Shown here: piece after piece, positions 7,319-64,000 of the stretch
Layout of the letters: each line of letters begins with the position of its first letter
Position numbering within the stretch: the first letter of the stretch is position 1
Assembly (NCBI GenBank): GCA_032622095.1
Contig: CP136064.1
Location: forward strand, 131,385,129-131,449,128
Direction of reading: 5' to 3'
DNA from: Siphonodentalium dalli
Taxonomy: Eukaryota > Mollusca > Scaphopoda > Gadilida > Siphonodentaliidae
DNA length: 64,000 nucleotides
Program-made: the position numbers and the translations under genes
Notes under the pieces: model-generated
Databases searched by the model: none
What the model was told of the DNA's origin: nothing
What the model saw: only the letters and a program-made list of their open reading frames with translations

Positions 7319-7587
7319 TCACAATTCCTCTATCACAACACACTCAGTGTGTGACTCAACATGTAGTCCTCCTTCCGTTACACTCTGCCGTTCATCATAA
7401 AACATCACCATTTTCATTTGCTTTTTGAATTCTTCAGGAACTTGAAACATAGGACCATGCCCAGGGACAATGTAGTCTGCTATATTGAGAACACTGAAAC
7501 GATTCTGCTGCTGTACTTCTGGATTCTCACTATTGTCCTGCCATATGTCTGGCTCGTCTAGATCTTCTGCCTTCTCGAACAAATCGC
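7319..7587 (-). CDS. MBLAC1-like last coding exon
   Basis: The acceptor TTATGTTCCAG precedes this exon. Two bases complete the glycine of the TGD motif, so the Asp that bridges the metals sits at the exon start (GDLFEKAEDLDEPDIW). Further on NIADYIVPGHGPMF supplies the last histidine ligand of the fold in the VPGHGP setting typical of MBLAC1. The C-terminal tail is acidic and polar and ends at TGA (7321-7319). The exon holds 88 codons plus stop. I saw no frameshift or internal stop. Confidence 0.9.
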
Positions 7588-19199: not shown

Positions 19200-19314
19200 C
19201 TGTTATGACAATGGTTCCATTCGGTGTGTTACGAACGACAACCGATACATCTGATGCTGTATGACCAGGTGTGGGAATAACCTCAATGTTCTCATCTATC
19301 TCGTATGGTATTCC
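19200..19314 (-). CDS. MBLAC1-like exon with PTPGH motif
   Basis: The acceptor is a strong pyrimidine tract ending TCTCACACAG and the donor is GTCAGC. The exon starts in phase 0 and ends after one base of a glycine codon. It encodes GIPYEIDENIEVIPTPGHTA then SDVSVVVRNTPNGTIVITG. The histidine in PTPGH is a metal ligand of the metallo-beta-lactamase fold. The DVSVVV strand after it is characteristic of MBLAC1. The frame joins cleanly to both duplicate upstream exons and to the last exon. Confidence 0.9.
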
Positions 19315-27514: not shown

Positions 27515-28107
27515 AAAGGAATGTTTAATGAGTCTCAGTGATTTTATTAAAGAAAAATTCATAACTTTAAGTTTCATAACTCTGTGGATGTTATAGTCAT
27601 GTTAGTTTTTCAAAGTCCTTTTAAAATGTTTTTGCAAGGTTTTAAATCTCAATTAAATAAATTTTTGTTTTATTTTAATTATATTTGAATTTGTTTTTTT
27701 TAAATTAATTTTTTTTTTTAAGAGGTCTGTCCCTGACTCGGCCCATGATCCGGTGACCCCATTTGAACAAATTTGAATCCCAGTCACAGAAAGAACCTCA
27801 ATATCAAATATAAGCTAAATCAGCCTGATGGTTCTTGAGAAGAAGTTGTTTTAAGAATTACTACCGGTATGGAGGGAAAGAGTTATGGCCCTGGCTTCAC
27901 AATTATTTTACCGGGTGACCTCATTTGAACAAATCTGAATGTAAGTCACCGAGGTACATCCACACCAAATATGAATCCATTCATTTTATTGATTCTGGAG
28001 AAGAAGATGTTTAAAGAATTGTTGACGGATGGACGTCTAGGCCGACGGACAATGGATGAGGAGTGTTGACTATAGCTCCAGCTGAGACTTCGTCTCATGT
28101 GAGCTAA
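27515..28107 (+). repeat. F2 element, truncated second copy
   Basis: It follows immediately after the previous F2 right end. It contains core units (GGTGACCCCATTTGAACAAA; AGAAGTTGTTTTAAGAATTA) and ends GAGACTTCGTCTCATGTGAG followed by CTAA. The left-end hairpin is missing. Confidence 0.7.
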
Positions 28108-28295
28108 AAAGGTTTAAAACAAGGTTACATAAAAATAACAAAAAAACATTTTCAGCTGGTTTTACAAATTGTTCCCAAATGGCAATTGGGGCCAGTGAAG
28201 AAAATAACTTAAAATTATTCAAAGTGATCAACTATTAGTTATCAATTGGTGCATGCACTCAAATTAAAGAAAATGAGAATAAAATATGATTATAC

Positions 28296-28459
28296 CTGCT
28301 TGAATTCGTGGGAGACATATAGATCTCCAATACATATATCAAAGCCATAGACATGGATCGAGTTAGTAAATAAGTTAGAATTTCCAGTGTGGTCAGAATG
28401 TCCATGTGTGCACACAACATATTCTATATTCTCTGGGGTCAGGTTATTTTTGGCCAGGC
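28296..28459 (-). CDS. MBLAC1-like alternative exon 2b (metal-binding motif intact)
   Basis: The acceptor is TTTCCTGTTGCAG and the donor GTATAA. The exon is 164 bp; it starts by completing a glycine codon and ends in phase 0. It encodes LAKNNLTPENIEYVVC then THGHSDHTGNSNLFTNSIHV and YGFDICIGDLYVSHEFKQ. The THGHSDH motif supplies the His, His, Asp and His metal ligands of the fold in canonical MBLAC1 form, so this is the version expected to give an active hydrolase. It is 29/55 identical, without gaps, to the exon at 33678-33841. Confidence 0.92.
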
Positions 28460-29164
28460 CTGCAACAGGAAACAAATAGTTAGTTGAGTTAATTAAAGGT
28501 GATTAGTTTATTGGGGGGAACTAGGTTACCACTCACAACACTTTCAGAAACTTAGCTTGATGAAATTATTTTTGATTTTTCAATATAAACAATGTCTGAC
28601 TTTATCAATCCCGGAATACCACTAACAGTTTAAAAAAAATCAATTTCAGAGAGCAGAAAGAAGAATTGTTGATAAACTATGCAACTTTTTAAGGAGTATG
28701 TTGTTGTAATTGGTAACACCAAGCACAGAAATCATATCAGTAGTGTGAATATATTGCAATTGTTAAGCAAACATCTGAAATTAAGAGCAAATTCGAACTT
28801 ATAAAGTCAGAGAAAGGTCTGATTTCAATATATTTTGATGGGAATCATCTGCCCTAATTGAACAATGTTATAATTCCATATGATAAAATATCTGGGTCAA
28901 TAGAAGATTGGTTTCAAAATAGAGAAATTAATTTGTTCATAGATTTACATGGAAAATGAGAACATATTTGAATGATCTAATCCTGACATTTATCTCTTTC
29001 AACACAAAACACCTTCATCATCTTACAAGTGTTTCTTATGAATATTTATTACCACATCAATAGCCCACTGGTCAAGACCAAACATGGAGTATACAGATAA
29101 AATGCCAGAAGTGTCGCTACAGTTTAATTCTCGAAACAAGGAAATTCAGGAGACTTCTCTATGG

Positions 29165-29872
29165 GAGGTTAAATATTTGTGCTTAAGTGCAAATAACCTC
29201 TATCATTTGCGCTTAAGCGCAAATCATTTGCGCTTAAGCACAAATCAAAATTAATATGCATTATCCCCCTGAATTAATTTTAAATGGCACAAGCCTAAAC
29301 ACAAAACAACGTATATATAGGCCCACCATATGACGGAATTAGCAATCCACCAGTAACCCCAATATCCCTTTTGTGACCATGGAAATGGTATAGATCTGTG
29401 CAGGATATGTCTCTTTTATAAAATAATATACTAGATCTCTGGGATGGAGACACAAATTCTTGGGGACAGGGATGCTGATAATATGAAAATATGGGTTTTT
29501 CCCCTATTTCAAGTCAATAAGTACACCATATGAGGGAAGCAAGCCCCTAGTAACCACTAATTCCCAATTTATGGTCATGGAAATGGTATATATCTGTGCA
29601 GGAGATGTCCCTTTAATAAAATATACTAGTGCTCTGGGAGTGAGGCATCAATTCTTGGGACACCAGGGACAGAGATGCTGATATGCATATTTAAATATGT
29701 TTTTTCTTCAACTTTAGAGCCTGTATGGGGCTACTACTATGGGCCCATGATAATATACTATGAGATGGACTCAATCATTCACAATCAGAGGGAAGTATTA
29801 AAGGGAGTGTTAGGTATTTGCGTTTAAGCGCAAATAAATAATAAATGTGAAAATGATTTGCGCTTAAGGTAA
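29165..29872. mobile_element. ~700 bp element with repeated palindromic ends
   Basis: Near the left end three 20 bp palindromes of the form ATTTGCGCTTAAGCGCAAAT (with small variants) lie at 29174, 29204 and 29225. The first sits inside a larger hairpin (AGGTTAAATATTTG ... AAATAACCT). At the right end ATTTGCGTTTAAGCGCAAAT is at 29816 and a partial copy at 29854. The interior has two diverged direct units (GGAAATGGTATAGATCTGTG and GGAAATGGTATATATCTGTG). No coding potential. It lies between the two alternative exons. Confidence 0.65.
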
Positions 29873-30637
29873 GGTTTTACATAGAAGATAATGGTGCAGG
29901 TTAAACAATTCTACAGTAATGCTGTCGGAGTGAAGGATGGAAAAGAGGGAGAACCAATTTCAATGAAAATATTTTTGTTGATGATTTCCATCAAATTTAT
30001 ATACAAAAAGTTATCTCCATGATATGGGGAATCTTATAATGTGATTCAAAGATACCCTATGAGTCAGGGATGGGGGTTGGTGAGGAACATCAAAATTAAT
30101 AAAAAAAAACAATTTGTCAACAATTTCTACCAAACTTAAAATTAGTCATGTCCATATGACAGTATAGTAAGAGAATATTACAGTATGGTAAAATATTCCA
30201 AAGTGGCACCATCCATGTCATTTCCTCCAAACTTATAGTCATCTCCATTGTACAGGAAATCTATGGTACAATTCAACATGGCAAAAGTCATACCATTGGA
30301 GTCTGGGATGGGGGTTGAGGGAGGAGCACCAAAATCGGATAAAAATATGTGTCACAGATATCATTCAAACATATATAGATATCTCCATGATATAAGATAC
30401 CTACTGGTGCAGCTTAAATTCTCTGAAGTGGCACAATTCAGGTCAGGAGATGGGGGAACTAACACAATTGAGAAAACCATGGATTTTCCTACAAACTTAT
30501 AAAGTTCCCAAAATAGTGCTGTTCATGTAAGGAATGAATGTCATGTAAGGGGCACCAACAATGCTAAAACAAGTTTCCTAGTTTACCAAACTTATCTATA
30601 TAATCATATCCGTGAGTGACATATCATATAAACTATA

Positions 30638-31957
30638 TGAAAGTGTCATGAAACTGTAGCTCAACTTGGAAAGGGAATAATTTAATGTATTACAGTCAAT
30701 GGAGCGATTAGGAATGTGGAAGGTTGAATATCTAATACTAGTTTATAGACATGACGAGAAAAGTAAAATCCAAGATGGCTGCTGGCGGCCATGTTTTCGG
30801 CCGAATGACCCCAAAATGAGTCGTTCCCATCTACATGTCATCGTTAACATCAATGACAAATTTTATGACGATCAGACTAAAGGTAATACCTGTAGCCCAT
30901 GCTAAATAATTTAGTCATACAAAGAGTAAAATCCAAGATGGCTGCTGGCGGCCATGTTTTTTGGCCGAATGACCCCAAAATGACTCGTTTCCCATCTACA
31001 TGTCATTATTAACATTCATGACAAATTTTATGATGATCAGACTAAAGGTACGACATGTAGCACGTGCTAAAGAATTTAGTCATACAAAGAGTAAAATCCA
31101 AGATGGCTGCTGGCGGCCATGTTTTTTGCCCGAATGACCCCAAAATGACTCGTTCACATCTACATGTCATTATTAACATTCATGACAAATTTCATGATGA
31201 TCAGACGAACAGTACGACCTGTGGGCCGTGCTAATGGATTAAATTTTGAAATCGAAGATGGCAGCTGGCGGCCATGTTTTTTGTCCGAATGACCCCAAAA
31301 TGAGTCGTTCCCATCTACATGTCATCGTTAACATCAATGACAAATTTTATGACGATCAGACTAAAGGTAATACCTGTAGCCCATGCTAAATAATTTAGTC
31401 ATACAAAGAGTAAAATCCAAGATGGCTGCTGGCGGCCATGTTTTTTGGCCGAATGACCCCAAAATGACTCGTTTCCCATCTACATGTCATTATTAACATT
31501 CATGACAAATTTTATGATGATCAGACTAAAGGTACGACCTGTAGCCCGTGCTAAAGGATTTAGTCATACAAAGAGTAAAATCCAAGATGGCTGCTGGTGG
31601 CCATGTTTTTTGGCCGAATGACCCCAAAATGACTCGCTCCCATCTACATGTCATTATTAACATTCTTGACAAATTTTATGATGATCAGACTAAAAGTACG
31701 ACCTGTAGCCCGTGCTAAAGAATTTAGTCATACAAAGAGTAAAATCCAAGATGGCTGCTGGCGGCCATGTTTTTGGGCCGAATGACCCCAAAATTACTCG
31801 TTCCCATCTACATGTCAATATTAACATCCATGACAAATTTCATGATGATCAGACAAACATTACGGCCTGTAGCCCGTGCTAATGGATTGAATTTTGAAAT
31901 CCAAGATGGCCACTGGCGGCCATGTTTATTTCCCGAATTTTCATGTATAGTATAATA
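30638..31957 (+). repeat. F1 array, 5' end plus ~7 units
   Basis: The left end is TGAAAGTGTCATGAAACTGT with TAGCTCAACTTGG, followed by about seven units of ~164 bp. Each reads AAATCCAAGATGGCTGCTGG, CGGCCATG, GGCCGAATGACCCCAAAATG, CGTTCCCATCTACATGTCA, ATGATCAGACTAAAGGTACG and GTGCTAAAGGATTTAGTCAT. The array stops without a right-end hairpin. It lies between the alternative exons 2a and 2b, in the same orientation as the larger array at 36893-39987 on the other side of exon 2a. Confidence 0.9.
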
Positions 31958-32539
31958 CAGGCCTGAAGATTTCAGTTCGCCTGGAGGTTACCTAAAGCTA
32001 AAATGCCGCGAACGAAAAAACACCTACATTGTGCCAAAGTTTTCAAAGTGTGCCAAAGGTCTCACGATCATGTATTTTCACCTTCATTATTGCTCAATCT
32101 AGTCCCAAGATGAGATATTCAAAATTATTGTTCAATGATTTGCTCATTAGTAATTAATAATACAGTGATGTGATTATATGTGCATAAACTCTTCTGTTAA
32201 CCTAAGCACTAAGTTTGTGCCACAAACCTGGTGACAAAAAATTGATTACTCATAATTTTAAGCTCTGCAGGCCTGTGTATATATTAACCGATAGAAAACC
32301 CTGCTAGTAAAAATATGTTGCTAATTCCATTAATATTGTGAGATATTCATTGTTATGACGGCTTCATAAGTCCCTTCTCCTTATTTCATTCTCTAAGAAG
32401 AAGCCTCTATTCAAAATAGTTTTTTTTTACAAGGAAACTGATCATTTATTAATAGGTATCCTGACATTTCCATCACCCATGTGAGTGGACATTTCCCCAC
32501 CTGGTGACTTAAAAAAACAAGGGTTGCGCATCAAAGATG

Positions 32540-32980
32540 GTTTGTTGATATTGTTGTGAAAGGTACACATAACAAATATGAATGTAATTGGTTGATGTTT
32601 GTTCAAGTTATCACGCTAATAGACATAACATTTCCTAAAATTGCTAAAAGTAGACTAACTATTGAGTGCCGTAACTCAGGTAAAAAGGATCAGACAAATC
32701 TGGTTTTGGAACTTGTTCTAGATATTGTTGTAAAAGATCCATACGCCAGCATACCAAATATGAATGCAATTGGTTGACATTTGTTCAAGTTGTCGCGCTA
32801 ACGGACATAACATTTACTAAAATTTCTAAAAATAGACAGACAGTAACTCAGGTAAAAAAAATTTGAACAAACCTGGTTGTCGAACTCGATCATGATATTA
32901 CTGTGACAGGTTGATACATGTATACCAAATATGAATGAGATTGGTTGACGTTTGTTCAAGTTAAAATGCTAGCAGATATA
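32540..32980 (+). repeat. Three diverged ~180-200 bp units related to the 161 bp array
   Basis: Three units carry CAAATATGAATGTAATTGGT-like sequence followed by TTTGTTCAAGTTATCACGCT-like sequence and ACATAACATTT. The order and phrases resemble those of the 9551 array (ACCAAATTTCAATCAAATCG, GTTATCGCGCTAACG). Old and decayed. Confidence 0.65.
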
Positions 32981-33677
32981 TAACGGGAAAACATCTGGTG
33001 GGTCGACACCTGGCGGGTATACGTCAGGTGGGTAATTGTCAGTATTACTATTAATCTATTGTCTGCTATACGTCAGTACTGAGTACGGATGTAAAATGTT
33101 ATGCTGTGTGCTATATGTCCGTATTGACATTTCATCACACTATCTGTCACCCATTTATTCATATAAACTAGAACTCAGAGATTGGTGCATTGGAACAACT
33201 ATATCTCAAAGTTTCATGTATGGTGTTCCACGATTGTGAAGGATAATAGCCTTTCAATTGATTCAGTTTTATGGTTTTCGTGATATTCAGTTATATTTTT
33301 CCACTGGAAAATGCCATAATGTCGATGACCCAGCACACGACGTCATAACATTAGCATTGAAAAGGTTAAAGTAATACTTCTATCTGAGCCAGTATATATG
33401 GCACATGAGTGTGGAAATGTTTGGTATTCACCAAATTATTCAGACACTTGTCACTACAAATCTTACTTGATTAATCATGCAAACATCATACAATACTAAC
33501 TTTGACCCAAGTCAGTAACTAACCAAAACCAAGCCTTCACAGAGGCCAGTAATCCACATATACTACGTTAGTACAAAGCTCATAACTTTTAACAAATTGT
33601 TACTGTCTCTCACAACGACTAAAGAACAAACACCAAACAACAAAAGACAATGGAACATTTCAGGCTTGACATTGTAC

Positions 33678-33841
33678 CTGTTTGAAATCATGTAGGATAT
33701 AGCTGTGTCCATTGTAGATTTGATTTGACACCACATGGATTGATCCAGTAAACAGGTTAAGATTTCCCACCTTGTCAGAGTTTCCACTTGTACAGACAAC
33801 ATACTTTATGTCATCAGCGATTAAACCATAATCCAATAGTC
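33678..33841 (-). CDS. MBLAC1-like alternative exon 2a (metal ligands lost)
   Basis: The acceptor is GCACTTCTCAG and the donor GTACAA. The exon is 164 bp and open throughout, with the same start and end phases as exon 2b. It encodes LLDYGLIADDIKYVVC then TSGNSDKVGNLNLFTGSIHV and VSNQIYNGHSYILHDFKQ. At the motif that is THGHSDH in 2b it reads TSGNSDK, so all three histidine ligands are gone and only the Asp remains. The surrounding core (YVVCT, GN, NLFT, SIHV, HxFKQ) is kept. This pattern fits a pseudoenzyme isoform or changed chemistry better than simple decay, but a recently silenced exon cannot be excluded. Confidence 0.85.
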
Positions 33842-34060
33842 CTGAGAAGTGCATTAATAAAAGTAATAATCACTATGCCTTGATGAAGGTCACAGAGAGT
33901 GAGAGTTGTATTCCTGATTTGCTGAAAATGCTGACTGAAATACACAAGCTTTATTTTTAGATTGACATAAAAAATGCCTTCATAACAACGGAATGGGGTG
34001 ATTTAAAGTAGTGATTATGAATTACCTATGAATGTGAGATTTACAATACCTGATAGAGAA

Positions 34061-34190
34061 CAAGAGTGTCAATGACTGTTGAGTCACTTTCCTGGCTGTA
34101 AAGACTGAGAAGACAACAACAGTCAGTACTTGTCAAGATATTACTCTAACCCCTTTCTATACTAAATGATTTCTCACATTCAGTTAAAAA
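34061..34190 (+). repeat. F2 left-end fragment
   Basis: CAAGAGTGTCAATGACTGTT followed by GACTGAGAAGAC and CAGTCAGTACTTGTCAAGAT. It is a truncated F2 leader with a slightly altered hairpin. Confidence 0.65.
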
Positions 34191-34574
34191 ATATACATTG
34201 AATTGGTATATTATTCATTGGGAGGGGTTTTCAGGGACAATAAGCAGACAGATCATACAAATGCAGAAGGAGTCTTATTTATTGAAGAATAAAAGGCCAT
34301 CCGGCCACAGTGTCCCCCGAAAAAGTGGCTTCATTGGGGGCATCAGCTTTTCTGAAAATAATAACAAGAACCCTAAATCCGATACTAAATTTCAGAACAA
34401 TCCAACCAGTGTCCCCTGAAATGGAACACGGCAAACTCTAGATATTTATTTGTTAATTTTACCTTCATTAATGCTGGCTGTGTTATTTGTTACCAGATGG
34501 TCTGTTCAGTGAATAAACAAGAAATCATCGGAAAAAAGTTCATATTATATTTTCATATAAGAAATCAATATTCA

Positions 34575-36892: not shown

Positions 36893-39800
36893 TGAAAGTG
36901 TCAATGACACTGTAGCTCAACTTGGAAAGGGAATAATTTAATATATTACAGTCAATGGAGCGATTAGGAATGTGGAAAGTTGAATGTCTAATACTAGTTT
37001 ATAGACATGAAGAGAAAAGTAAAATCCAAGATGGCTGCTGGCGGCCATGTTTTCGGCCGAATGACCCCAAAATGAGTCGTTCCCATCTACATGTCATCGT
37101 TAACATCAATGACAAATTTTATGACGATCAGACTCAAGGTACGACCTGTGGCCCATGCTAATGGATTAAATTTTGAAATCCAAGATGGCCACTGGCGGCC
37201 ATGTTTTTTGTCCGAATGACCCCAAAATGACTTGTTCCCATTTACATTCCAATTTCAACAGCCATGAAAAATTTTATGATGATCAGACTAAAGGTACGAC
37301 CTGTAGCCCATGGTAAAGGATTTAGTCATACAAAGAGTAAAATCCAAGTTGGCTGCTGGCGGCCATGTTTTTTGGCCGAATGACCCTAAAATTACTCGTT
37401 CCCATCTACATGTCATTGTTAACATCCATGACAAATTTTATGATGATCAGACTAAAGGTACGACCTGCAGCCCGTGCTAAAGAATTTAGTCATGCAAAGA
37501 GTAAAATCCAAGATGGCTGCTGGCGGCCATGTTTTTTGGCCAAATGACCCCAAAATGACTCGTTCCCATCTACATGTGATTATTAACATTCATGACAAAT
37601 TTTATGATGATCAGACTAAAAGTAGGACCTGTAGCCCGTGCTAAAGGATTTAGTCATGCAAAGAGTAAAATCCAAGACGGCTGCTGGCGGCCATGTTTTT
37701 TGGCCGAATGACCCCAAAATGACTCGTTCCCATCTACATGTCAATATTAACATCCATGACAAATTTCATGATGATCAGACGAACAGTACGACATGTGGCC
37801 CGTGCTAATGGATTAAATTTTGAAATCCAAGATGGCTGCTGGCGGCCATGTTTTTTGTCCGAATAACCCCAAAATGACTCGTTCCCATCTACATTCCAAT
37901 TTCAACAGCCATGACAAATTTTATGATGATCAGACTAAATGTACGATCTGTAGCCCGTGCTAAAGAATTTAGTCATACAAAGAGTAAAATCCAAGATGGC
38001 TGCTGGCGGCCATGTTTTTTGGCTGAATGTCCCCAAAATTACTCGTTCCTATCTACATGTCAATATCAACAGCCATGACAAATTTTATGATGATCAGACT
38101 AAAGGTACGACCTGTAGCCCGTGCTAAAGGATTTAGTCATACAAAGAGTAAAATCCAAGATGGCTGCTGGCGGCCATGTTTTTTGGCCAAATGACCCCAA
38201 AATGACTCGTTCCCATCTACATGTGATTATTAACATTCATGACAAATTTTATGATGATCAGACTAAAGGTACGACCTGTAGCCCGTGCTAAAGGATTTAG
38301 TCATACAAAGAGTAAAATCAAAGATGGCTGCTGGTGGCCATGTTTTTGAGCCAAATGACCCCAAAATGACTCGTTCCCATCTACATGTCAATATTAACAT
38401 CCATGACAAATTTCATGATGATCAGACAAACAGTACGACCTGTGGCCCGTGCTAATGGATTAAATTTTGAAATCAAAGATGGCCGCTGGCGGCCATGTTT
38501 TTTGTCCGAATGACCCCAAAATGACTCGTTCCCATCTACATTCCAATATCAACAGCCATGACAAATTTTATGATGATCAGACTAAAGGTACGGCCTGTAG
38601 CCCATGGTAAAGGATTTAGTCATACAAAGAGTAAAATCCAAGTTGGCTGCTGGCGGCCATGTTTTTTGGCCAAATGACCCCAAAATGACTCGTTCCCATC
38701 TACATGTCATTATTAACATTCATGAAATTTTTTATGATGATCAGACTAAAGGTACGACCTGTAGCCCGTGCTAAAGAATTTAGTCATACAAAGAGTAAAA
38801 TCCAAGATGGCTGCTGGCGGCCATGTTTTTCGCCAAATGACCCCAAAATTACTCGTTCCCATCTACATGTCAATATTAACATCCATGACAAATTTCATGA
38901 TGATCAGACGAACAGTACGACATGTGGCCCGTGCTAATGGATTAAATTTTGAAATCCAAGATGGCTGCTGGCGGCCATGTTTTTTGTCCGAATGACCCCA
39001 AAATGACTCGTTCCCATCTACATTCCAATTTCAACAGCCATGACAAATTTTATGATGATCAGACTAAATGTACGACCTGTAGCCCGTGCTAAAGGATTTA
39101 GTCATACAAAGAGTAAAATCCAAGATGGCTGCTGACGACCATGTTTTTTGGCCGAATGACCCCAAAATTACTCGTTCCCATCTACATGTCATTGTTAACA
39201 TCCATGACAAATTTTATGATGATCAGACTAAAGGTACGACCTGCAGCCCGTGCTAAAGAATTTAGTCATACAAAGAGTAAAATCCAAGATGGCTGCTGGC
39301 GGCCATGTTTTTTGGCCGAATGTCCCCAAAATTACTCGTTCCCATCTACATGTCAATATCAACAGCCATGACAAATTTTATGATGATCAGACTAAAGGTA
39401 CGACCTGTAGCCCGTGCTAAAGGATTTAGTCATACAAAGAGTAAAATCCAAGATGGCTGCTGGCGGCCATGTTTTTTGGCCAAATGACCCCAAAATGACT
39501 CGTTCCCATCTACATGTGATTATTAACATTCATGACAAATTTTATGATGATCAGACTAAAAGTAGGACCTGTAGCCCGTGCTAAAGGATTTAGTCATGCA
39601 AAGAGTAAAATCCAAGACGGCTGCTGGCGTCCATGTTTTTTGGCCGAATGACCCCAAAATTACTCGTTCCCATCTACATGTCAATATTAACATCCATGAC
39701 AAATTTCATGATGATCAGACGAACAGTACGGCCTGTAGCCCGTGCTAATGGATTGAATTTTGAAAACAAAGATGGCCACTGGCGGCCATGTTTTTTTCCT

Positions 39801-39987
39801 AATGACCCCAAAATGAATCATTCCGGTACAAATGTTGATGTCAACAGCTATGACAAATTTCATAATGATCCGATCAAAGGTACGACCTGTAGCCTCTATT
39901 GTTGACGCCTTACGCACACACACACACGGACGACGGACGACAAAGCCATGGCAATAGCTCAAACTTTACAAAGTAAAGTTGAGCTAA
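36893..39987 (+). mobile_element. F1 element, full length, ~17 core units
   Basis: The left end TGAAAGTGTCAATGACACTG holds a hairpin (AGTGT-CAATG-ACACT) followed by TAGCTCAACTTGG. About 17 units of 164 bp follow (for example CCAAGATGGC at 37991 and 38155). The tail is GACGCCTTACG, a CA run and GACGGACGACAAAGCCATGG. The right end (39955-39987) folds TAGCTCAAACTTTAC against GTAAAGTTGAGCTA and ends CTAA. No protein is encoded: the short open frames repeat with the units. It is pearl-like (Helentron-associated) by structure and lies in the intron between 43521 and 33841. Confidence 0.85.
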
Positions 39988-43520: not shown

Positions 43521-43619
43521 CTTGCTCTATGAGGTTCTTGTCCCAAGGGTTCCCAGTGTCCACCAGAACAGTGTGTGGACCTTTGATCAAGGTTATGCTT
43601 CCACATGCTTTTTGACGTC
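43521..43619 (-). CDS. MBLAC1-like first identified exon
   Basis: The acceptor is GTATTATTTACAG and the donor GTGAGA. The 99 bp exon starts by completing a codon and ends after one base of a glycine. It encodes RQKACGSITLIKGPHTVLVD then TGNPWDKNLIEQ. The VLVDTGxPW strand-loop is the conserved N-terminal hallmark of MBLAC1. The upstream exon with the start codon was not found between 43620 and 47500. It is either in later repeats or outside the window. The exon accepts either 2a or 2b downstream. Confidence 0.88.
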
Positions 43620-51433: not shown

Positions 51434-51795
51434 AAAGGATGAACTGTCATCTGCATATGAGACATACACAGATTTTGATCGTTACAAAAAGACACAAAAA
51501 TTTGACATGGATCATTACATCATGGATTTTGAGAAGAGGTATAATAAGAAACTTCGACAATCAGTTCTGGCTTTTAAGCTTTTGGATGGAACTTGTTTAG
51601 AACACAAAGACCGGCAACTTGTTCTTACTGCTGTAAATTATGAGGACTCTGATTCATTATTCAGACAGATGAGTGTAGCTTTAAGGAAATTCTTCGGAAA
51701 ACAATCTATGACAGCTAATGAAAATAAAGATAGAAATATATCTATCAAAGTGGAACCAGATGATTCTGAAGCGTATGTTGCATTTCGGTATGGTG
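51434..51795 (+). pseudogene. Copia gag, C-terminal part
   Basis: It resumes KDELSSAYETYTDFDRYKKT and runs through the capsid C-terminal region (MDHYIMDFEKRYNKKLRQSV) into an acidic linker. Near 51785-51800 the coding meaning switches by one base to the frame that carries the RGG-rich region and pol, so a single-base indel separates gag from the zinc knuckle in this copy. Confidence 0.8.
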
Positions 51796-53388
51796 ATAAG
51801 AGGACGTGGACAATATGACAGAAATAGAGGATTTTCTCGGGGTCATGGAGGTCAAGCACCGGATAGACCTGGAGGGTTTCAACGAGGTCGTGGAGGTCAA
51901 AATTTGGATAGACCTGGAGGAAGGAATAGACGGCGGACTAATCCTATATCTTCTGATGGGAGGCCAATGAGGTGTGTAATCTGTGAGAGTATTCTGCATT
52001 TCGCCGCAGGATGTCCACATTCTTACGAGAACATGGAGAAAAGGACATACTTTTGTAATTCCGAAATTCAACAAGATGCAGAAGCTGTACTATTTACAGG
52101 AAATGTAGTAGAAGAAATGCAAGTTCTGGTAAATGAGACAATTTGTTGTGCTGTTCTTGACATCGCTTGTAGCTCAACAGTCGCAGGAAAACTGTGGATG
52201 GAATGTTTTCTGGATTCATTAACACCAGAGAATTTAGCAAAAGTGCAACGAGAGGAGAGCTCAACTGTTTTCAGATTTGTTGGTGGAACAAGACTTGAAT
52301 CAAGAGGGAAAGTAACTTTTCCGTGTGAATTAGCCGGAGTTCGAAGCACAATAACAACGGACGTTGTTGATAGTGACAATCCACTTTTGTTAGGAAAACC
52401 ATCTATGAAGAAAGCAGGAATTGTTTTGGACTTGGTGAATGATCGTGCACATATTTTTGACAAATATGTTGACTTACAATTAACATCTGCAGGACATAAT
52501 TGTATTCCACTCTTTCAAACTGAGGTTACCATTCAGGAGACATGCATGGTTGACATTTTCAAGGACAAAGTTTCTTTAAACGAGATGCAGCATGTGATCA
52601 CCAAATTACATAAACAATTTGCTCATCCTTCTAGTGAACGTCTTAAAGTTCTTTTGAGAGATGCCAATATGAGAGATAAGAGGTGTCTTGAAATCGTGGA
52701 TAAGGTGACTGAAAACTGTGATATATGCAAACGATATCGGAAAACTTCAAGTCGTCCAGTTGTGTGTGTACCAATTTCTAAAAATTTCAATTATGTGGTT
52801 GTGATGGATCTTAAGGAATGGGATAAAAATAAAGGTATTTACTTCCTTCACATCATTGATATGGCAACTCGATTCTCTTTGGCATCAGTTATCTACAGCA
52901 AGAAACAAGAAGTTATTATAGACAATGTGATGAAAATGTGGATCGATGGAGGTTTTGGTACTCCACAGAAAATTCTCACAGACAACGGAGGTGAATTTGC
53001 ATGTTCAAAGGTGAGAGACATGGCTGAAAATTTGAATATAGAAGTGATGAATACTGCTGCTAATTCGCCATGGCAGAATGGACTTTGTGAAAGAAACAAT
53101 GCGGTAGTTGATGGCAGTGTCAAGAAAATTCTATCGGATCAACCTGATATGGATCTGGAGACTGCTCTTATTTGGGCAATAAATGCTAAAAACTCTCTGC
53201 AGATGGTTTATGGTTATAGCCCATATCAGTTAGTGTTCAGATGCAATCCAAATCTACCTTCAATACTGGTTGACAGACCACCAGCATTAAAAGGTTCGAC
53301 ACAAACTGAAATATTCGCAAAACATTTAAATGCTTTGCACAGCGCGCGCCAAGCGTTCATCGGAGCAGAAGCATCTGAAAAAATCTGA
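51796..53388 (+). pseudogene. Copia polyprotein: zinc knuckle, protease, integrase
   Basis: An RGG-rich stretch is followed by a CCHC knuckle (CVICESILHFAAGC, spacing CX2CX4HX4C). Next come a protease-like VLDIACSSTVAG with an intact Asp, then the HHCC integrase zinc region (LHKQFAHPSS to CDICKRYRK). The integrase core carries its Asp, Asp and Glu residues in VVMDLKEW, ILTDNGGEF and QNGLCERNN. The frame ends at a TGA (53386-53388) just before an arginine-rich run that continues in the same frame, consistent with a CGA to TGA change. Catalytic residues look intact but the copy is dead downstream. Confidence 0.88.
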
Positions 53389-53881: not shown

Positions 53882-56800
53882 TAGTCCAGGAGATATTGGT
53901 CAACCTCTGCACCCCCCCCCCCAGGACTTAACTTCACCCCACTAATTTTCTTCCTTAAGGTCTCCTCTAATTTTTTTCACTTGTTAACAAGAAAAGATTA
54001 ATGCACCAGGTTTCATTGATCGGCGTTATAGTAAAGATGATGTCACATGCCGTCTTGCTTTCCGCTCGATTCGTTATGCTAATATACAACCCTTACAAAT
54101 TAGCCAAAAATCCGACACCAGAATCCAATATGGCGGCCAAGATGGCCGCCGAAATGTGAAAATATGCTATTTTTCTGTCATGTTACCACCTTTCGTTTGT
54201 CTCTGTGGGAAAATGTTAGAATGTTTGCGTCATGTTATACATTTATCATACAGAGGAGTCATTGGCGAATACATGGGGACCATAATATGCATTCATTGCG
54301 GGATATTTTTGTCCGATATCACGTTTTCCCAAATGCCGGTATCATAGGTCAAAGCCGAATCTCCGTTAATAACGCGATGTTATGTTTCGAATCAATGAAT
54401 GTTATTGCTATTATAACAACACCCATGCATATATATTTGCAGGAGATACTCGAGCTAGGATTCCTCTTATACCTGAGTTGAGGAATATTTACCCAACTCC
54501 AAGATGGCGGCCAAAATGGCCACCAGAAATAAAAAATCGCTGATTTTAACATCAGTGAGCATTATTGTCATGACAACTCCACACCTGCTTACTATTGTAA
54601 GTTGGGAACACTTAGACGAAGAACTTTCCTTGTACCATATCCAAATAAAAGTCCCCCAAATCCAAAATGGCGCCCACAATGGCGGACAGATTTTGAAAAA
54701 TCACAGAAAATCCCTCATATTCACATCATTGGGCATTATTGTCGAGACAACTCCATCCATGCGTACAGTTGAGTTGGAAATACTGAGTTGAAGTAATTAC
54801 CTTACATCTCATGCAAGAAATGGTTTTCCAAATCGAAGATGGCGGCCAAAATGGCGACCGAAATTTGAAAACACGCCTACATTCCTTTACTTTCTTAGGA
54901 TGGGCGTTATTGTTTCGCGATTTCTACCCACCACTACATGTTGATATGTATGAATTATTCATTATGGTTTGGCAAGTGATACTCAGTCAATATGGCGGCC
55001 AAACTGGCGGGCAGAAATTGAAAAGAAGCCGATATTATCACATACTAATTTCAACTTTTTGTCATAATATTAATTTGTATAAACGAAACGGTACATAATA
55101 TAAGCCATATATTAGTTCCAATGTAAGTCGTAGTCTTTTGGAAGGGTGAAAACCCACAATCGCGATGTGGCATTTCAAAATCCATTCTCCACTAAGGGCT
55201 CATACTGGCCGTAACCGTATATAGGTGCGCCGAATATTCATATTATGACTTCCAAGAATCAAAACAACAGTACCTGAGCTTATTCTGAATTGCCACATTC
55301 AGCATTATCTAGACTCGTTTCCGTCTCTTCGTCAGATTAATCTATCTCACCCACAACAACAGTTCACTACTCTTCTTCGTAGAAGGGTGCCACTAATCGG
55401 AATGTTTCAAACAATACATATGCCGGATTCTAGCTCACGTGTTTGTTTCGAAAGCTTGGAATTCTTAGCGAGCTTCATTCGTGGTATAGCTTATGGTATA
55501 ATACAGATGCTACATATGCATGGGGTATATGCGTCATCTTGTGCGATACACTATAAAGGAATTCGGTCGATGCGTATACAAGCTTTCAGAAGGACCTATC
55601 TATCTGCGTATTGCCAGCTTTGGTGACCTAATGGGGATAACAACGTGTACACCTGGTGATTTTCCCAAACAGCCACTTCTCAATATATGGTTCATCAATT
55701 CACATACCCATCTAATGCACTCACGTACCCGGACAACTTCTGTATATGGCTTCGAATGTGGAAAGCCCGACATTTGTGGATACAATTCTGCTAAGGCGTA
55801 GACGACCATAATGCATAATATACCCAAACTCCTTGAACATGATCATAAGAACAAGCTTGTTGGCGTCCAGCAATCGTCTCACCGAACAGTTCCAAGCAGA
55901 TGATAACAATAATCACGGTGCTAGTTTGTGGGTATGTGTCACGATAGTGGAAATGAAATTGGACCATGACTGCACCGCCCCTTATTTTGTTATGTTTTAG
56001 ATTCAGACAGGATCTCATGTGTGGCTTTGCTTTCCTTGTATGCTAAAATTGTATGTTCCCACCCATTTGGAAGCCGTTCTTAAACAACTGGACCAGGAGT
56101 ATGCCATTGGCTACTGCTGTATAAGCCCCACCAAGACTGGGGTGTAGTCTTAAAGGCGATACATTTGATAGTTGGTTGATATGTCATACTCACGCTGGGT
56201 GGTATGGTTCAAGAAAGTACAAATGTCATCAACAAAAGGGTGAAATGTTCAACACGAAGAACATCCACAGGAATGTTACGTTGGTGAGCTCTTGCATTCA
56301 GTTCAACAAACGTTGGTACACCAAGTGATTTCTTGGTAACATCACCATTGCGACCATTTCCCTACATGAGACATTAACTACTATATTCTAAAGTTATATA
56401 TATAAAACTATATGATCATAAAGGTCGCGTTCCCCAACGTCCACTGCCATCGAGACTGTAAATTGTTCTTTAAATACATAGTGAAATAAATGCACCACAG
56501 TTCCTGACATTTTCTTGAATAATACCGCCCACATACTGACACTAACCCCGAGAGAGGATAACAAAACACACACGCATATACATTCATGCTATAAAGACAT
56601 TATCATTTAGTCCATCCGACTGTTTTGAGGGAGGCTAGCATAGTATTATCCAGACAAAAGTGTACGTAGTTGAATCAGAAAGGCGGATGTGGAAATACAA
56701 TCTTACCACACCAAATAAAACCGACACGCATGACATTCGATATCTTAAACATGCACCAGGTGTAGGGGTGGTGTATAGAGTGGCCCATTTCATTCCCACT

Positions 56801-58838
56801 ATCATGGCGCATGTCCACAAACTAGCACCGCGAGCATTGTTCTTCTCTGCTGAGAGATATTCGACGATACAACTGCGGGGCTTCACACAGTTTGCTTCGG
56901 ATAATGGTGTGGGTGGTCTGTACACTAGGGTCTTCTCCTTAGCATATAGACATCTGTCCAAGGGAATGAGACAGCTAGCAACCTTCGAAGTTGTCCACAT
57001 ATGCCAATGCATTCGCTGAGTTTGTGAGTTGACGAACCATCTATTGAGAAGTGACTAGCTAACTGGTTCGCCAGGTGTACATGTCGTTATCCCATGGGGT
57101 ATGAGACACATACATAGAGATGACATTCTGTAAGCTTGTATACTCATCGGTCATATGCCTTCCTAGTTCAAGATGACGCACAAATATGATAGTTTGTAAA
57201 TATTTAAAATCGTAAGCTAGACACCGGAAAATGAATTGTTTGAAACGTTATGATTAGAGGGACCCTACTCACAGGAAGTGGTGAATACTTTGTCGGTGTG
57301 AGCGACCTAGATTTATCAGACAAAGAAATGGAAGCTGGTCCAGCTAATTAAGGACGTGACGTGGCAAATCAGAATCTGTTATCAGGTAATTGTTTTGATA
57401 TAACTATTTGGCGCACATACGCTTACGGCCATTATCGGCGCTAAGTGGAGACTGGATATCGAAATGCCACATCGCGATATTAATTGTGGTTTTTCATCTT
57501 TCCAGAAGGATACGAGCTATGTTATGCGTTTTGATACCTTTAAGTTGAACTAGTAGATGGTTTATGTACAGTTTCGTCCATACATACCGATATTATGACA
57601 AAAAGTTGAAATTAATATGTGAAAATATCGATTTCTTTTCCATTTCTAGCCGCCAATTTAGCAGCGATCTTGGCTGTGAGTATCAATTGCCAAACCCTAA
57701 TGAATACTTCATGTCACTATTCCATATCAACATGTAATGGTGGGTAGAAATCGCGAAACAATAACGCCCGTCCTAAGAATGTAAAGGAATGTAGGCGTGT
57801 TTTCAAATTTTGGTCGCCATTTTGGCCGCCATCTTCGATTTGGAAAACCATTTCTTGCATGAGATGTAAGGTAATTACTTCAACTCAGTATTTCCAACTC
57901 AACTGTACGCATGGATGGAGTTGTCTCGACAATAATGCCCAATGATGTGAATATGAGGGAATTTCGGTGATTTTTCAAAATCTGTCCGCCATTGTGGGCG
58001 CCATTTTGGATTTGGGGGACTTTTATTTGGATATGGTACAAGGAAAGTTCTTCGCCTAAGTGTTCCCAACATACAATAGTAAGCAGGTGTGGAGTTGTCA
58101 TGACAACAATGCTCACTGATGTTAAAATCAGCGATTTTTTTTTCTGGTGGCCATTTTGGCGCCATCTTGGATTTGGGTAAATATTCCTCAACTCAGGTAT
58201 AAGAGGAATCCTAGCTCGAGTATCTCCTGCAAATATATATGCATGGGTGTTGTTATAATAGCAATAACATTCATTGATTTGAAACATAACATCGCGTTAT
58301 TAACGGAGATTCGGCTTTGATCTATGATACCGGCATTTTGGAAAACGTGATATCGGACAAAAATATCCCGCAATGAATGCATATTATGGTCCCCATGTAT
58401 TCGCCAATGACTCCTCTATATGATAAATGTATAACATGACGCAAACATTCTAACATTTTCCCACAGAGACAAACGAAAGGTGGTAACATGACAGAAAATA
58501 GCATATTTTCACATTTCGGCGGCCATCTTGGCCGCCATATTGGATTCTGGTGTCGGATTTTTGGCTAATTTGTAAGGGTTATATATTAGCTTAACGAATC
58601 GAGCGGAAAACAAGACGGCATGTGACATCATCTTTACTATAACGGCGATCAAAGAAACCTGGTGCATTAAAAAAAAATGGCCGCCATGATGGACGCCATC
58701 TTGTCTGGAGTCTCTGCGGCCACTTTTTTTTCTTGTTAACAAGTGAAAAAAATTAGAGGAGACCTTAAGGAAGAAAATTAGTGGGGTGAAGTTAAGTCCT
58801 GGGGGGGGTGCAGAGGTTGACCAATATCTCCTGGACTA
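53882..58838. mobile_element. Giant inverted-repeat element, 4,957 bp, TTA duplication
   Basis: It runs from TAGTCCAGGAGATATTGGTC to its complement, flanked by TTA at 53879-53881 and 58839-58841. Removing element plus one TTA restores the copia frame. The arms cover about 53882-55980 and 56785-58838. They are nearly identical outside, ~85% near 54960-55080 versus 57600-57700 by eye, and much more diverged inside. Each arm is built from ~150-190 bp units headed by AAGATGGCGGCC-type motifs (54127, 54501, 54664, 54837, 54989). The 3 bp TTA target fits PIF/Harbinger. I found no transposase; the longest open frame is ~125 codons and unrecognised. Confidence 0.85.
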
Positions 58839-58962: not shown

Positions 58963-60124
58963 CAGGGGCGTAGCAAGCAAATTTTATTGGGGGGGTATAA
59001 CCATTCATCGTGAAGCACTGACCGGACGCCGATGGCGTCGGTGGGGGAGAGCACGAGAGGGGGTCGCCCCCCTCTCGATGGGGAGTTCTGACATTGGAAG
59101 CTTAAAGTGGCTCTCTGGTGGCTTCTGACCCATCTGACATTGTTTTCCCACACACTACATTATCATAGATTAGATCAACATTCTTATCATTTATCAATTG
59201 TAATTTCATAAAATGGTAGGCCGATTGAAAGTGTAATGAACAAATAGGTATATGGGAATTCATGTTGTGTTATTATCTAGTCATTAATGATGTGAAATTA
59301 CTCCCATAACTGGGATAAGATATTCAGAAAGTAAATATGACACAAACAACCATGAGAAAGTAGACTACATGGATACACACATCACCATGGGTATGTATCG
59401 TGGGGTATTTATCGTGTGGGTATGAATAGTGTGGGTATGTATCGTGGGTATGTATAGTGGGTATGTATAGTGGGTATGTATCATGGGGGTATGTATCGTG
59501 GGTATGTATAGTGGGGGTATGTATAGCGTGGTTATGTATAGTGGTGGTATGTATTGTGTGAGTATGTATAGTGTGGGTATGTATAGTGTGGGTATGTATA
59601 GTGTGGGTATGTATAATGTGGGTATGTATAGTGTGGGTATGTATAGCGTGGGTATGTATAGTGGTGGAATATATTGTGTGGGTATGTATCGTGTGGGTAT
59701 GTATAGTGTGGGTATGTATAGTGTGGCTATGTATAGTGTGGGTATGTATAAAGTGGGTATGTATAGTGTGGGTATGTATAGCGTGGGTATGTATAGTGGT
59801 GGTATATATTGTGTGGGTATGTATAGTGTGGGTATGTATAGTGTGGCTATGTATAGTGTGGGTATGTATAATGTGGGTATGCATAGTGTGGGTATGTATA
59901 GTGTTGATATGTATAGTATGGGTATGTATCGTTTGGGTATGTATAGTGTGGGTATGTATCATGGAGGTATGTATGGTGTGGGTATGTATCGTGGGGGTGT
60001 GCATTGCCGTGATCGTCGGCGATACTTCATTAGTTTGCCAAATATTTTTACTAACCTTTGGAAAATATTGGGGGGATAAATACCCCCCTTGCCCCCCCCC
60101 CCCCCCCCGGTTCCTACGCCCCTG
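58963..60124. mobile_element. hAT-like non-autonomous element, 1,162 bp
   Basis: It begins CAGGGGCGTAGCAAGC and ends CCTACGCCCCTG, with an 8 bp target duplication CTTAAAAT at 58955-58962 and 60125-60132. CAGGGGCGTAG-type ends with 8 bp duplications are typical of hAT elements. Inside are G and C runs and a long 15 bp minisatellite. No transposase: the ~200-codon open frames on both strands are minisatellite translations. Confidence 0.92.
59395..60000. repeat. 15 bp minisatellite with higher-order structure
   Basis: About 40 copies of GTGTGGGTATGTATA. The variant GTGGTGG(A/T)ATATATT-type unit recurs at 59541, 59661 and 59796, i.e. 8 and then 9 monomers apart, followed by the same order of variants. 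This shows a higher-order repeat of 120-135 bp. Confidence 0.95.
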
Positions 60125-60132
60125 CTTAAAAT

Positions 60133-60622
60133 ATTCATTGGACTAGCTTCATCGTTATCATGGAAATGCAACATTATCGATGTCAAAGCTGCGTTTCTAC
60201 AGGGGAACGCAATTGAAGGGAAGTCCTGTTAAAACCTCCAAATGATTTGTACAATAATAAATTGTGGAAGTTAAAGAAGTGTGTTTATGGACTTAACGAT
60301 GCTTCTCGTCAGTGGTATTTCAGAGTGTGTGAAGTATTAAAATCATCAGGCTGCAAACAATCACAAAATGATCCTGCTCTTTTCTACAAGTATTCTGATA
60401 AAGGACTAGATGGGCTTTTTCTGATGCATGTGGGCGATTTCTTGTGGTGTGGTAATGAACAATTTCGAAAGGGAGTGATTTCAGAGATCTTGAGAACATT
60501 TCAAATAGGAAAGCTGCTCATGATCAATTTCGTTACATTGGATTGGACATTCATCAAAGTGATAAAAATATAATGATGAATCAAACTCAGTATATTGGAT
60601 CATTGTGTGGAATTCCAACTAG
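60133..60622 (+). pseudogene. Copia RT segment 2, active site damaged
   Basis: It contains IDVKAAFLQGN, then a frameshift near 60225, then LKKCVYGLNDASRQWYFRV and SQNDPALFYKY. The catalytic box, normally YVDD in copia, reads HVGDFLWCG here, so one catalytic Asp is replaced by Gly. A further frame change follows near 60525. F3 interrupts the end. Confidence 0.88.
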
Positions 60623-61813: not shown

Positions 61814-64000
61814 TAGTCCAGGAGATATTGGTCGACCTCTGCACCTCCCCCCCCCCCAGGACTTAACTTCACCCCACTAATTTTCTTCCTTAAGGTCTCC
61901 TCTAATTTTTTTCACTTGTTAACAAGAAAAAAAAGTGGCCGCAGAGACTCCAGACAAGATGGCGTCCATCATGGCGGCCATTTTTTTTAAATGCACCAGG
62001 TCTCTTTGATCGCTGTTATAGTAAAGATGATAGCACATGCGGTCTTGTTTTCTGCTCGATTCGTTATGCTAATATACAACCCTTACCAATTAGGCAAAAA
62101 TCCGACACTAGAATCCAATATGGCGGCAAATATGGCCGAAATGTTAAAATATGCTATTTTTCTGACATTTCACCACCTTTCGTTTTTGTCTCTGTGGGAA
62201 AATATTGGCATTTTGGCGTGAATTTATACATTTATCGTATAGAAGAGTCATTAGCAAACACAAGGCGACCATAATATTCATTTATTGTGTGATATTTTTG
62301 TCCGATATCATGTTTTCCCAAATGCCGGTATAATAGGTCAAAACCGAATCGACGCTAATAACGCGATGTTATGTTTCGAATCAATGAATGTTATTGATAT
62401 TATAACAACACCCATGCATATATATTTGCAGGAGATACCCGAGCTAGGATTCCTCTTATACCTGAGTTGAGGAATATTTACCCAAATCCAAGATGGCAGC
62501 CAAAATGGCCACCAGAAATAAAAATTTGCCGAAAATCGCTGATTTTAACATCAGTGAGCATTATTGTCATGACAACTCCACACCTGCTTACTATTGTAAG
62601 TTGGGAACACTTAGGCGAAGAACTTTCCATGTACCATATCCAAATAAAAGTCCCCCAAATCCAAAATGGCGCCCACAATGGCGGACAGATTTTGAAAAAT
62701 CACAGAAATTCCCTCATATTCACATCATTGGGCATTATTGTCGAGACAACTCCATTCATGCGTACAGTTGAGTTGGAAATACTGAAGTGAAGTAATTACC
62801 TTACATCTCATGCAAGAAATGGTTTTCCAAATCGAAGATGGCGGCCAAAATGGCGACCGAAATTTGAATACACGCCTACATTCCTTTACTTTCTTAGGAT
62901 GGGCGTTATTGTTTCGCGATTTCTACCCACCATTACATGTTGGTATGTATGAATTATTCATTAGGGTTTGGCAAGTGATACTCACAGTCAATATGGCGGC
63001 CAAACTGGCAGGCAGAAATTGAAAAGAAGCCGATATTATCACATACTAATTTCAACTTTTTGTCATAATATTGATTTGTATAAACGAAACGGTACATAAT
63101 ATAAGCCATCTATTAGTTCCAATGTAAGTCATAGCCTTTTGGAAGGATGAAAACCCACAATCGCGATGTGGCATTTCAAAATCCATTCTCCACTAAGGGC
63201 TCATACTGGCCGTAACCGTATATGGGTGCGCCGAATAGTCATATTATGACTTCCAAGAATCAAAACAACAGTACCTGAGCTTATTCTGAATTGCCACATT
63301 CAGCATTATCTAGACTCGTTTCCGTCTCTTCGTCAGATTAATCTATCTCACTCACAACAACAGTTCACTACTCTTCTTTGTAGAAGGGTGCCACTGATCG
63401 GAATGTTTCAAACAATACATATGCCGGTGTCAGGCTCACGTGTTTGTTTCGAAAGCTTGGAATTCTTAGCGAGCTTCATTCGTGGTATAGCTTATGGTAT
63501 AATTCAGATGCTACATATGGGGTATATGCGTCATCTTGTGCGATACACTATAAAGGTAATCGGTCGATGCGTATACTAGCTTTCAGAAGGACCTATCTAT
63601 CTGCGTATTGTCAGCTTTGGGGACCTAATGGGGATAACAACGTGTACACCTGGTGATTTTCCCAAACAGCCACTTCTCAATATATGGTTCATCAATTCAC
63701 ATACTCATCTAATGCACTGACGTACCCGGACAACTTCTGTATATGGCTTCGAATGTTGAAAGCCCGACATTTGACGGATGCATTTCTGCTAAGGCGTAGA
63801 AGACCATAATGCATAATATACCCAAATTCCTTGAACATGATCATAAGAACAAGCTTGTTGGCGTCCAGCAATCGTCTCACTGAACAGATCCAAGCAGATG
63901 ATAACAATACACACGGTGCTAGTTTGTGGTTATGTGTCATGATAGTGGAAATGAAATTGGACCATGACTGCACCGCCCCTTATTTTGTTATGGTTTAGAT
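61814..64000. mobile_element. Giant inverted-repeat element, second copy (partial)
   Basis: It starts TAGTCCAGGAGATATTGGTC and follows the left arm of the 53882 element almost base for base to the window end. It keeps the ~70 bp GTGGCCGCAGAGACTCCAGA and ATGGCGTCCATCATGGCGGC segment that the first copy shows only in its right arm, so the first copy has a left-arm deletion. It continues past the window. Confidence 0.9.

Follow-up and report, generated by a model that had tools for sequence, protein, structure and literature searches.

Can a single gene encode both an enzyme and a disarmed version of the same enzyme? The question is raised by an MBLAC1-like gene of the scaphopod mollusc Siphonodentalium dalli, in which the second exon occurs in two versions, 2a and 2b, and only 2b carries the histidines of the metal-binding motif. 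The gene lies on the minus strand of a stretch of DNA of 64,000 nt (CP136064.1, 131,385,129-131,449,128; hereafter the window), to whose positions the coordinates below refer, while genome searches covered 2.23 Gb in 9 contigs. An earlier annotation of this DNA, the original prediction, had proposed that two protein forms arise from the duplicated exon by alternative splicing. The reading favoured here, to which we assign a probability of about 0.6, is that 2a and 2b are mutually exclusive exons through which the gene would yield either an active or a disarmed MBLAC1.

What does the gene look like? Read along the minus strand, shared coding exon 1 (43521..43619, 99 nt) ends with a split glycine codon at a strong donor (GCAAG/gtgagata) and is followed by the alternative exons 2a (33678..33841) and 2b (28296..28459), of 164 nt each, which are separated by an intron of 5218 nt (28460..33677). 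Shared exon 3 (19200..19314, 115 nt) contains TPGHT with His196, and shared exon 4 (7319..7587, 269 nt including the TGA), the last coding exon, contains VPGHGP with His263 and GDLFE with Asp221, the glycine codon of the latter being split by the exon junction. Both alternative exons have GT-AG junctions (...ttctcag/GACTAT...AACAG/gtacaatg for 2a and ...gttgcag/GCCTGG...AGCAG/gtataatc for 2b), and in the phase set by exon 1 each is open over 54 full codons, the remaining two frames of each containing stops. Coordinates, strand, length, splice sites and open frames of the two exons had been given correctly in the original prediction, and so had the motif strings, THGHSDH in 2b and TSGNSDK in 2a. 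Its identity count of 29/55 agrees with the 28 of 54 full codons found identical without gaps (52%), the extra residue being the glycine split over the exon 1 junction. The exon that it took as the first, at 43521, is a real coding exon (43619-43521) but an internal one, as the likely ATG exon (55 nt) is located at C4:131455649, window-equivalent 70521 and 6.5 kb outside the window. This exon came to light when about 50 kb of upstream DNA were scanned with a human MBLAC1 fragment of ten residues, 2 segments passing and the ATG exon scoring higher; its phase is compatible with the rest of the gene, and its residues are aligned by HMMER to human residues 20-48 within the whole 2a product, with a weak score of their own (3.3 bits).

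Which combinations of exons can be read? Together with the ATG exon, either 2a or 2b gives a transcript of 702 nt with an unbroken frame of 233 residues plus stop. Both exons join exons 1 and 3 in frame, and in length, phase and splice sites they have the properties of tandem-duplicated mutually exclusive exons. When both exons or neither is used, the reading frame runs into stops, in the joint case a few codons inside 2b. Since the exon length of 164 nt is not divisible by three and leads to premature stops, joint use and omission of exon 2 are penalised by the frame.

Are the two exons truly related, and is the gene MBLAC1? The resemblance is more than chance, as the local DNA alignment scores 37, where 500 shuffles reached 16 at most; in a tblastn search of the window, residues 78-241 of human MBLAC1 (PDB 4V0H) match both 2b (E 3e-8) and 2a (E 1.7e-5). 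The best solved relative of either form is 4V0H, at E 1.3e-37 and 132.7 bits for 2b and at E 2.8e-35 and 124.9 bits for 2a (192-aa pieces), the whole 2a product reaching E 1.2e-36 and 129.5 bits. Equally, 191-aa pieces of both forms pass the PF00753 Lactamase_B cut-off of 22.7 bits (68.2 bits for 2b, 42.3 bits for 2a), exon 2b alone matches this Pfam family, and LVDTG.PW, TPGH, GD.FE and VPGHGP are common to human MBLAC1 and the window gene. All five genome places at E<=0.001 are exons of this one gene, giving a count of one MBLAC1 locus, and exons 1, 3 and 4 are each single: the genome search gave one place for each of them, and so did the window at significant score.

How much of the metal site would each form retain? 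The ligands of human MBLAC1 are His116, His118, Asp120, His121, His196, Asp221 and His263 (PMC6303110). In the alignment to 4V0H, with that numbering, all seven are present in the 2b form. In 2a, His116 is replaced by Ser, His118 by Asn and His121 by Lys, each codon lying two nucleotides off the 2b codon, such that motif II reads SGNSDK in place of HxHxDH and Asp120 is the sole motif ligand kept. His196, Asp221 and His263 (motifs III-V) are encoded by the shared exons 3 and 4 and are present in the 2a form as well, which leaves His196 and the bridging Asp221 at site 1 and Asp120, Asp221 and His263 at site 2. From these residues no dinuclear site is expected in the 2a product, a weak single metal site is possible, and the form is likely to be metal-deficient. 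The claim that 2a has lost its metal site stands for the three histidines and not for Asp120, with three of the four motif ligands gone rather than all. Compared with 2b, 2a keeps 1 of 4 motif ligands and 27 of 50 other residues. Among residues common to human MBLAC1 and 2b, 3 of 3 ligand histidines and 4 of 18 other sites are changed in 2a (Fisher 0.026), a difference that is no more than suggestive of a loss targeted at the ligands.

Is exon 2a maintained? The 1-kb flanks of the two exons align at shuffle level, both upstream (score 15; 60 shuffles with mean 14.6 and maximum 19) and downstream (score 18; mean 14.0, maximum 20), whereas the exons score far above it; the duplication is therefore old, the introns being scrambled and the exons preserved. 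Drift simulations were halted at the observed nucleotide identity of 96/162, with four settings for 2b and 400 runs for each. A neutrally drifting 2a retained on average 18.7-19.5 of 54 identical residues, never reached 28 (0/400 at each setting) and was free of stops in 12.0-14.5% of runs, while a 2a constrained like 2b kept at least 28 identical residues in 12-80% of runs, depending on the strength of constraint. The second-position identity of 40/54 fits the constrained means (37.5-41.4) and not the neutral ones (33.4-34.2). The comparison with human MBLAC1 gives 14 sites common to human, 2a and 2b, 6 sites at which 2a alone equals human (two earlier sites, the L of GNL, the Gly that follows LF. 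and, in the next strand, V and S) and 7 at which 2b alone does, 3 of the latter being metal histidines, which leaves 4 others. With the metal histidines set aside, 2a is as conservative as 2b. The pairwise dN/dS between 2a and 2b amounts to 0.18 by maximum likelihood (ML), 0.23 by NG86 and 0.32 by LWL85, a fourth method giving no value. Decayed introns beside preserved exons, the neutral simulation and the agreement with human outside the metal histidines uphold the earlier suggestion of constraint on 2a, and in these comparisons 2a has the look of a coding exon that is old and has been maintained.

What do the splicing signals say? Splice sites were scored with generic weights from general knowledge and ranked among the 3532 GT and 2932 AG of the minus strand. 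The donors of 2a (0.7 bits, top 7.7%) and 2b (0.4 bits, top 8.7%) are weak beside those of exon 1 (6.7 bits, top 0.06%) and exon 3 (4.2 bits, top 0.71%), which fits regulated exons; the acceptors rank at 1.6% for 2a, 0.07% for 2b and 3.0% for exon 1. RNA pairing elements that could enforce an exclusive choice were sought in 27900-34300, and none of the 9 inverted-repeat pairs held there, weak or palindromic as they are, was convincing.

The introns around 2a and the search for further copies of this exon gave some additional observations. The intron that separates 2a from 2b has tandem 21-bp units, each largely palindromic, at 29202-29247 and more copies at 29172, 29813 and 29853. The introns flanking 2a also carry minisatellite arrays with a unit of 164 bp, at 30762-31882 (6.9 copies, 88% matches) and 37018-39894 (17.8 copies, 86%). 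Kinship of these units with the 164-nt exons was considered and rejected, the alignment scores being 9-10 against shuffle means of 9.4-9.6, and the equal length is apparently a coincidence. In the genome search at E<=10 the 2a query found 6 places, namely 2a, 2b and four weak ones (E 0.10, 1.78, 2.32 and 7.72), and in the matched stretches of these four neither an HxHxDH nor an SxNxDK motif was present; they were taken as chance resemblance and rejected as further copies. One of them (L001) lies directly behind a reverse-transcriptase open reading frame (RVT_1). The other three (L002, L003 and L004; E 1.8-7.7 to 2a) are mutually alike, at 43-49% over about 42 residues with frames of the type LN.GL..LD.I.Y..., and would appear to stem from a single dispersed repeat. 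Of 57 pattern matches obtained on scanning prokaryote contigs, 1 locus was confirmed (L005, Halorientalis; 40% over residues 13-59 of the query), which is too distant for use.

How, then, might the gene work? An old tandem duplication of MBLAC1 exon 2 would have given rise to 2a and 2b, and splicing would select one of them, with the frame disfavouring both or neither. With 2b, an ordinary di-metal MBLAC1 would be made. The product of 2a would probably keep the metallo-beta-lactamase fold, with site 2 deprived of His121 and site 1 left with His196 and bridging Asp221, and would be inactive or nearly so. Most likely 2a would lower MBLAC1 activity by taking the place of the active form in certain cells or at certain stages. 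It might also pair with active subunits or hold substrate, because human MBLAC1 forms dimers in which the active site adjoins the interface (PMC6303110). In the same source, the human triple ligand mutant H196A/D221A/H263A is mainly a monomer, retains little activity and is not secreted. The wider proposal of an on/off MBLAC1 controlled by splicing in this lineage, in which ancient exclusive exons swap a working dinuclear site for a dismantled one and a built-in pseudoenzyme subunit might bind the active form and hold it in check, is put forward tentatively, at somewhat less than even odds.

Several observations weigh against exclusive exons that yield an active and a disarmed MBLAC1. The alternative splicing of 2a and 2b is read from genomic sequence, joint inclusion of the two is penalised by the frame alone, and the acceptor of 2a lies below that of 2b, yet above that of exon 1. 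Exon 2a alone had no match to Pfam Lactamase_B. With Asp120 included, the excess of changes at ligands becomes modest (3/4 vs 4/17, Fisher 0.088). The constraint tests are based on one genome and one outgroup protein, the dS between 2a and 2b (1.2-2.9) is near saturation, and the third-position identity of 25/54 is closer to the neutral means (27.2-28.1) than to the constrained ones (15.2-21.3); the simulation is also compatible with long constraint followed by recent decay of 2a. Of the idea of two forms produced by splicing, what stands is one gene with tandem homologous exons that are splice-compatible and exclusive by frame, with evidence that 2a was kept by selection; the use of both exons in splicing, the lack of metal in the 2a protein and its service as a decoy or regulator stay conjectural.

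The alternatives can be arranged by how well they survive this evidence. Unlikely, although ahead of the others, is that both exclusive exons are in use and the 2a protein is alive, with one metal at Asp120/Asp221/His263 and another chemistry or substrate. The 2a product does retain Asp120, His196, Asp221 and His263. Enzymes of metallo-beta-lactamase subclass B2 use one metal at Asp120/Cys221/His263 with Asn at position 116, and NDM-type enzymes carry Lys at 121. The B2 enzymes retain His118, however, and use Cys221, whereas in 2a positions 116, 118 and 121 are all altered. Equally, a site 2 without His121 would be weak, Asp120 being a long contact of 2.9 A to metal 2 in the human protein (PMC6303110). 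On the other side stands coq-2 as a precedent for exclusive exons that remodel the core of an enzyme (PMC7434440).

Next comes the possibility that 2a is a retired alternative exon, which was long constrained and is now decaying, its histidines having been lost after disuse. The change of all three histidines, the acceptor rank of 2a (1.6% vs 0.07% for 2b), a third-position identity near that of neutral runs and the derivation of 2a use from the genome sequence alone would all suit such a history. Still, the frame of 2a is open with 0 stops in 54 codons and its splice sites are intact; it keeps 14 of the 18 residues common to human and 2b, the three histidines aside, and has 6 human-shared residues that are missing from 2b. 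This course of events is regarded as doubtful.

Much less probable is that 2a serves as a regulatory or poison exon, whose inclusion alongside 2b throws off the frame and leads to loss of the mRNA while its peptide is of little weight. Joint inclusion does lead to a premature stop few codons into 2b, but the peptide constraint seen on 2a is not needed by a poison exon, and 2a alone gives a complete open frame of 233 aa. That 2a and 2b belong to two genes, for instance through a partial tandem gene duplicate, is the least credible option and was rejected, for although tandem gene copies are common in animals, exon 2 alone is doubled, exons 1, 3 and 4 are single and the ATG exon was seen once in the approximately 50 kb upstream scan, in which a second segment also exceeded the score limit.

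What would mutually exclusive exons for an active and a disarmed MBLAC1 mean? Pseudoenzymes usually arise from gene duplication. Here, exchangeable exons of one gene appear to encode an enzyme together with its disarmed counterpart, and splicing could set their ratio. Among the matches listed, as judged by title and start of abstract, none describes mutually exclusive exons for MBLAC1, in line with the original prediction, which knew of no such description, and none an exon swap that dismantles the catalytic metal site of an enzyme. Exclusive exons that remodel a protein would thus be of a known kind, and the dismantled catalytic metal site is the part for which no description was found among those matches. 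As the duplication is old, the exon pair is expected across many related genera. MBLAC1 has a role in histone pre-mRNA cleavage in human cells (PMC6303110), and its worm relative in the protection of dopamine neurons (PMC5891035). If the reading is true, the gene would represent a natural experiment on MBLAC1 function and a case in which selection keeps the metallo-beta-lactamase fold although three of its main metal ligands are gone.

Some further repetitive stretches occur elsewhere in the window. Retroelement pieces are present at 51712-53388 and 60217-60573, with an integrase core (rve, E 1e-10) and an RVT_2 reverse transcriptase (E 2.4e-9). Open frames that are alike occur in both orientations at 54477-55626, 57880-58296 (minus) and 62398-63579, suggesting a dispersed repeat, and 59324-60146 is a long simple repeat with low-complexity frames on both strands.

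How does the gene compare with known systems? Human MBLAC1 (PDB 4V0H) belongs to the same family, and the 2b form has all seven of its ligands; the word 'isoform' occurs 0 times in the main text of PMC6303110, whereas in the window gene exon 2 is doubled with one version lacking His116, His118 and His121. SWIP-10 of C. elegans is a putative MBLAC1 orthologue. In a survey that covered 236 human substitutions of tandem-duplicated exons, such exons kept 80.6% of their predicted ligand residues, as compared to 53.1% for the other residues of these proteins; in ACTN1, ACTN4 and ACAN one exon had lost most or all predicted ligand residues, calcium-binding each time (PMC9741552). The latter cases resemble the exon pair of MBLAC1 in that one exon is without most or all ligand residues, and differ from it in what is lost, calcium binding in those proteins and ligands of a catalytic metal site in 2a, with 1 of 4 motif ligands kept.

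Closer in kind is coq-2, whose exons 6a and 6e are mutually exclusive in helminths, annelids and molluscs (PMC7434440). As proposed for the MBLAC1 gene, tandem mutually exclusive exons rebuild the core of an enzyme, although the swap in coq-2 alters substrate choice and both forms are enzymes (PMC7434440), whereas that in MBLAC1 would remove metal ligands. Such pairs are known to be exclusive in animals that make rhodoquinone, and a doubled coq-2 exon suits a mollusc, an annelid or a helminth, the bivalves of the original prediction having been a guess. As a control within the same genome, S. dalli has a coq-2-like gene with a UbiA-family match, in which the preceding exon together with either alternative exon matches TIGR01474 best, the partial proteins scoring 155.3 and 141.3 bits, below the cut-off of 275. 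Its two exons (L006:9574-9702 and L008:211-339, plus strand) lie 3.4 kb apart and are 45% identical over 42/43 residues (13/43 when aligned ungapped without a one-residue offset), and by analogy the MBLAC1 pair (5.2 kb, 52%) would be of the same kind. A parallel at the level of the protein is offered by CPSF-100, the pseudoenzyme partner of the active metallo-beta-lactamase nuclease CPSF-73. There, likewise, a metal-site-deficient fold pairs with an active one, but the two are encoded by separate genes and are not splice forms.

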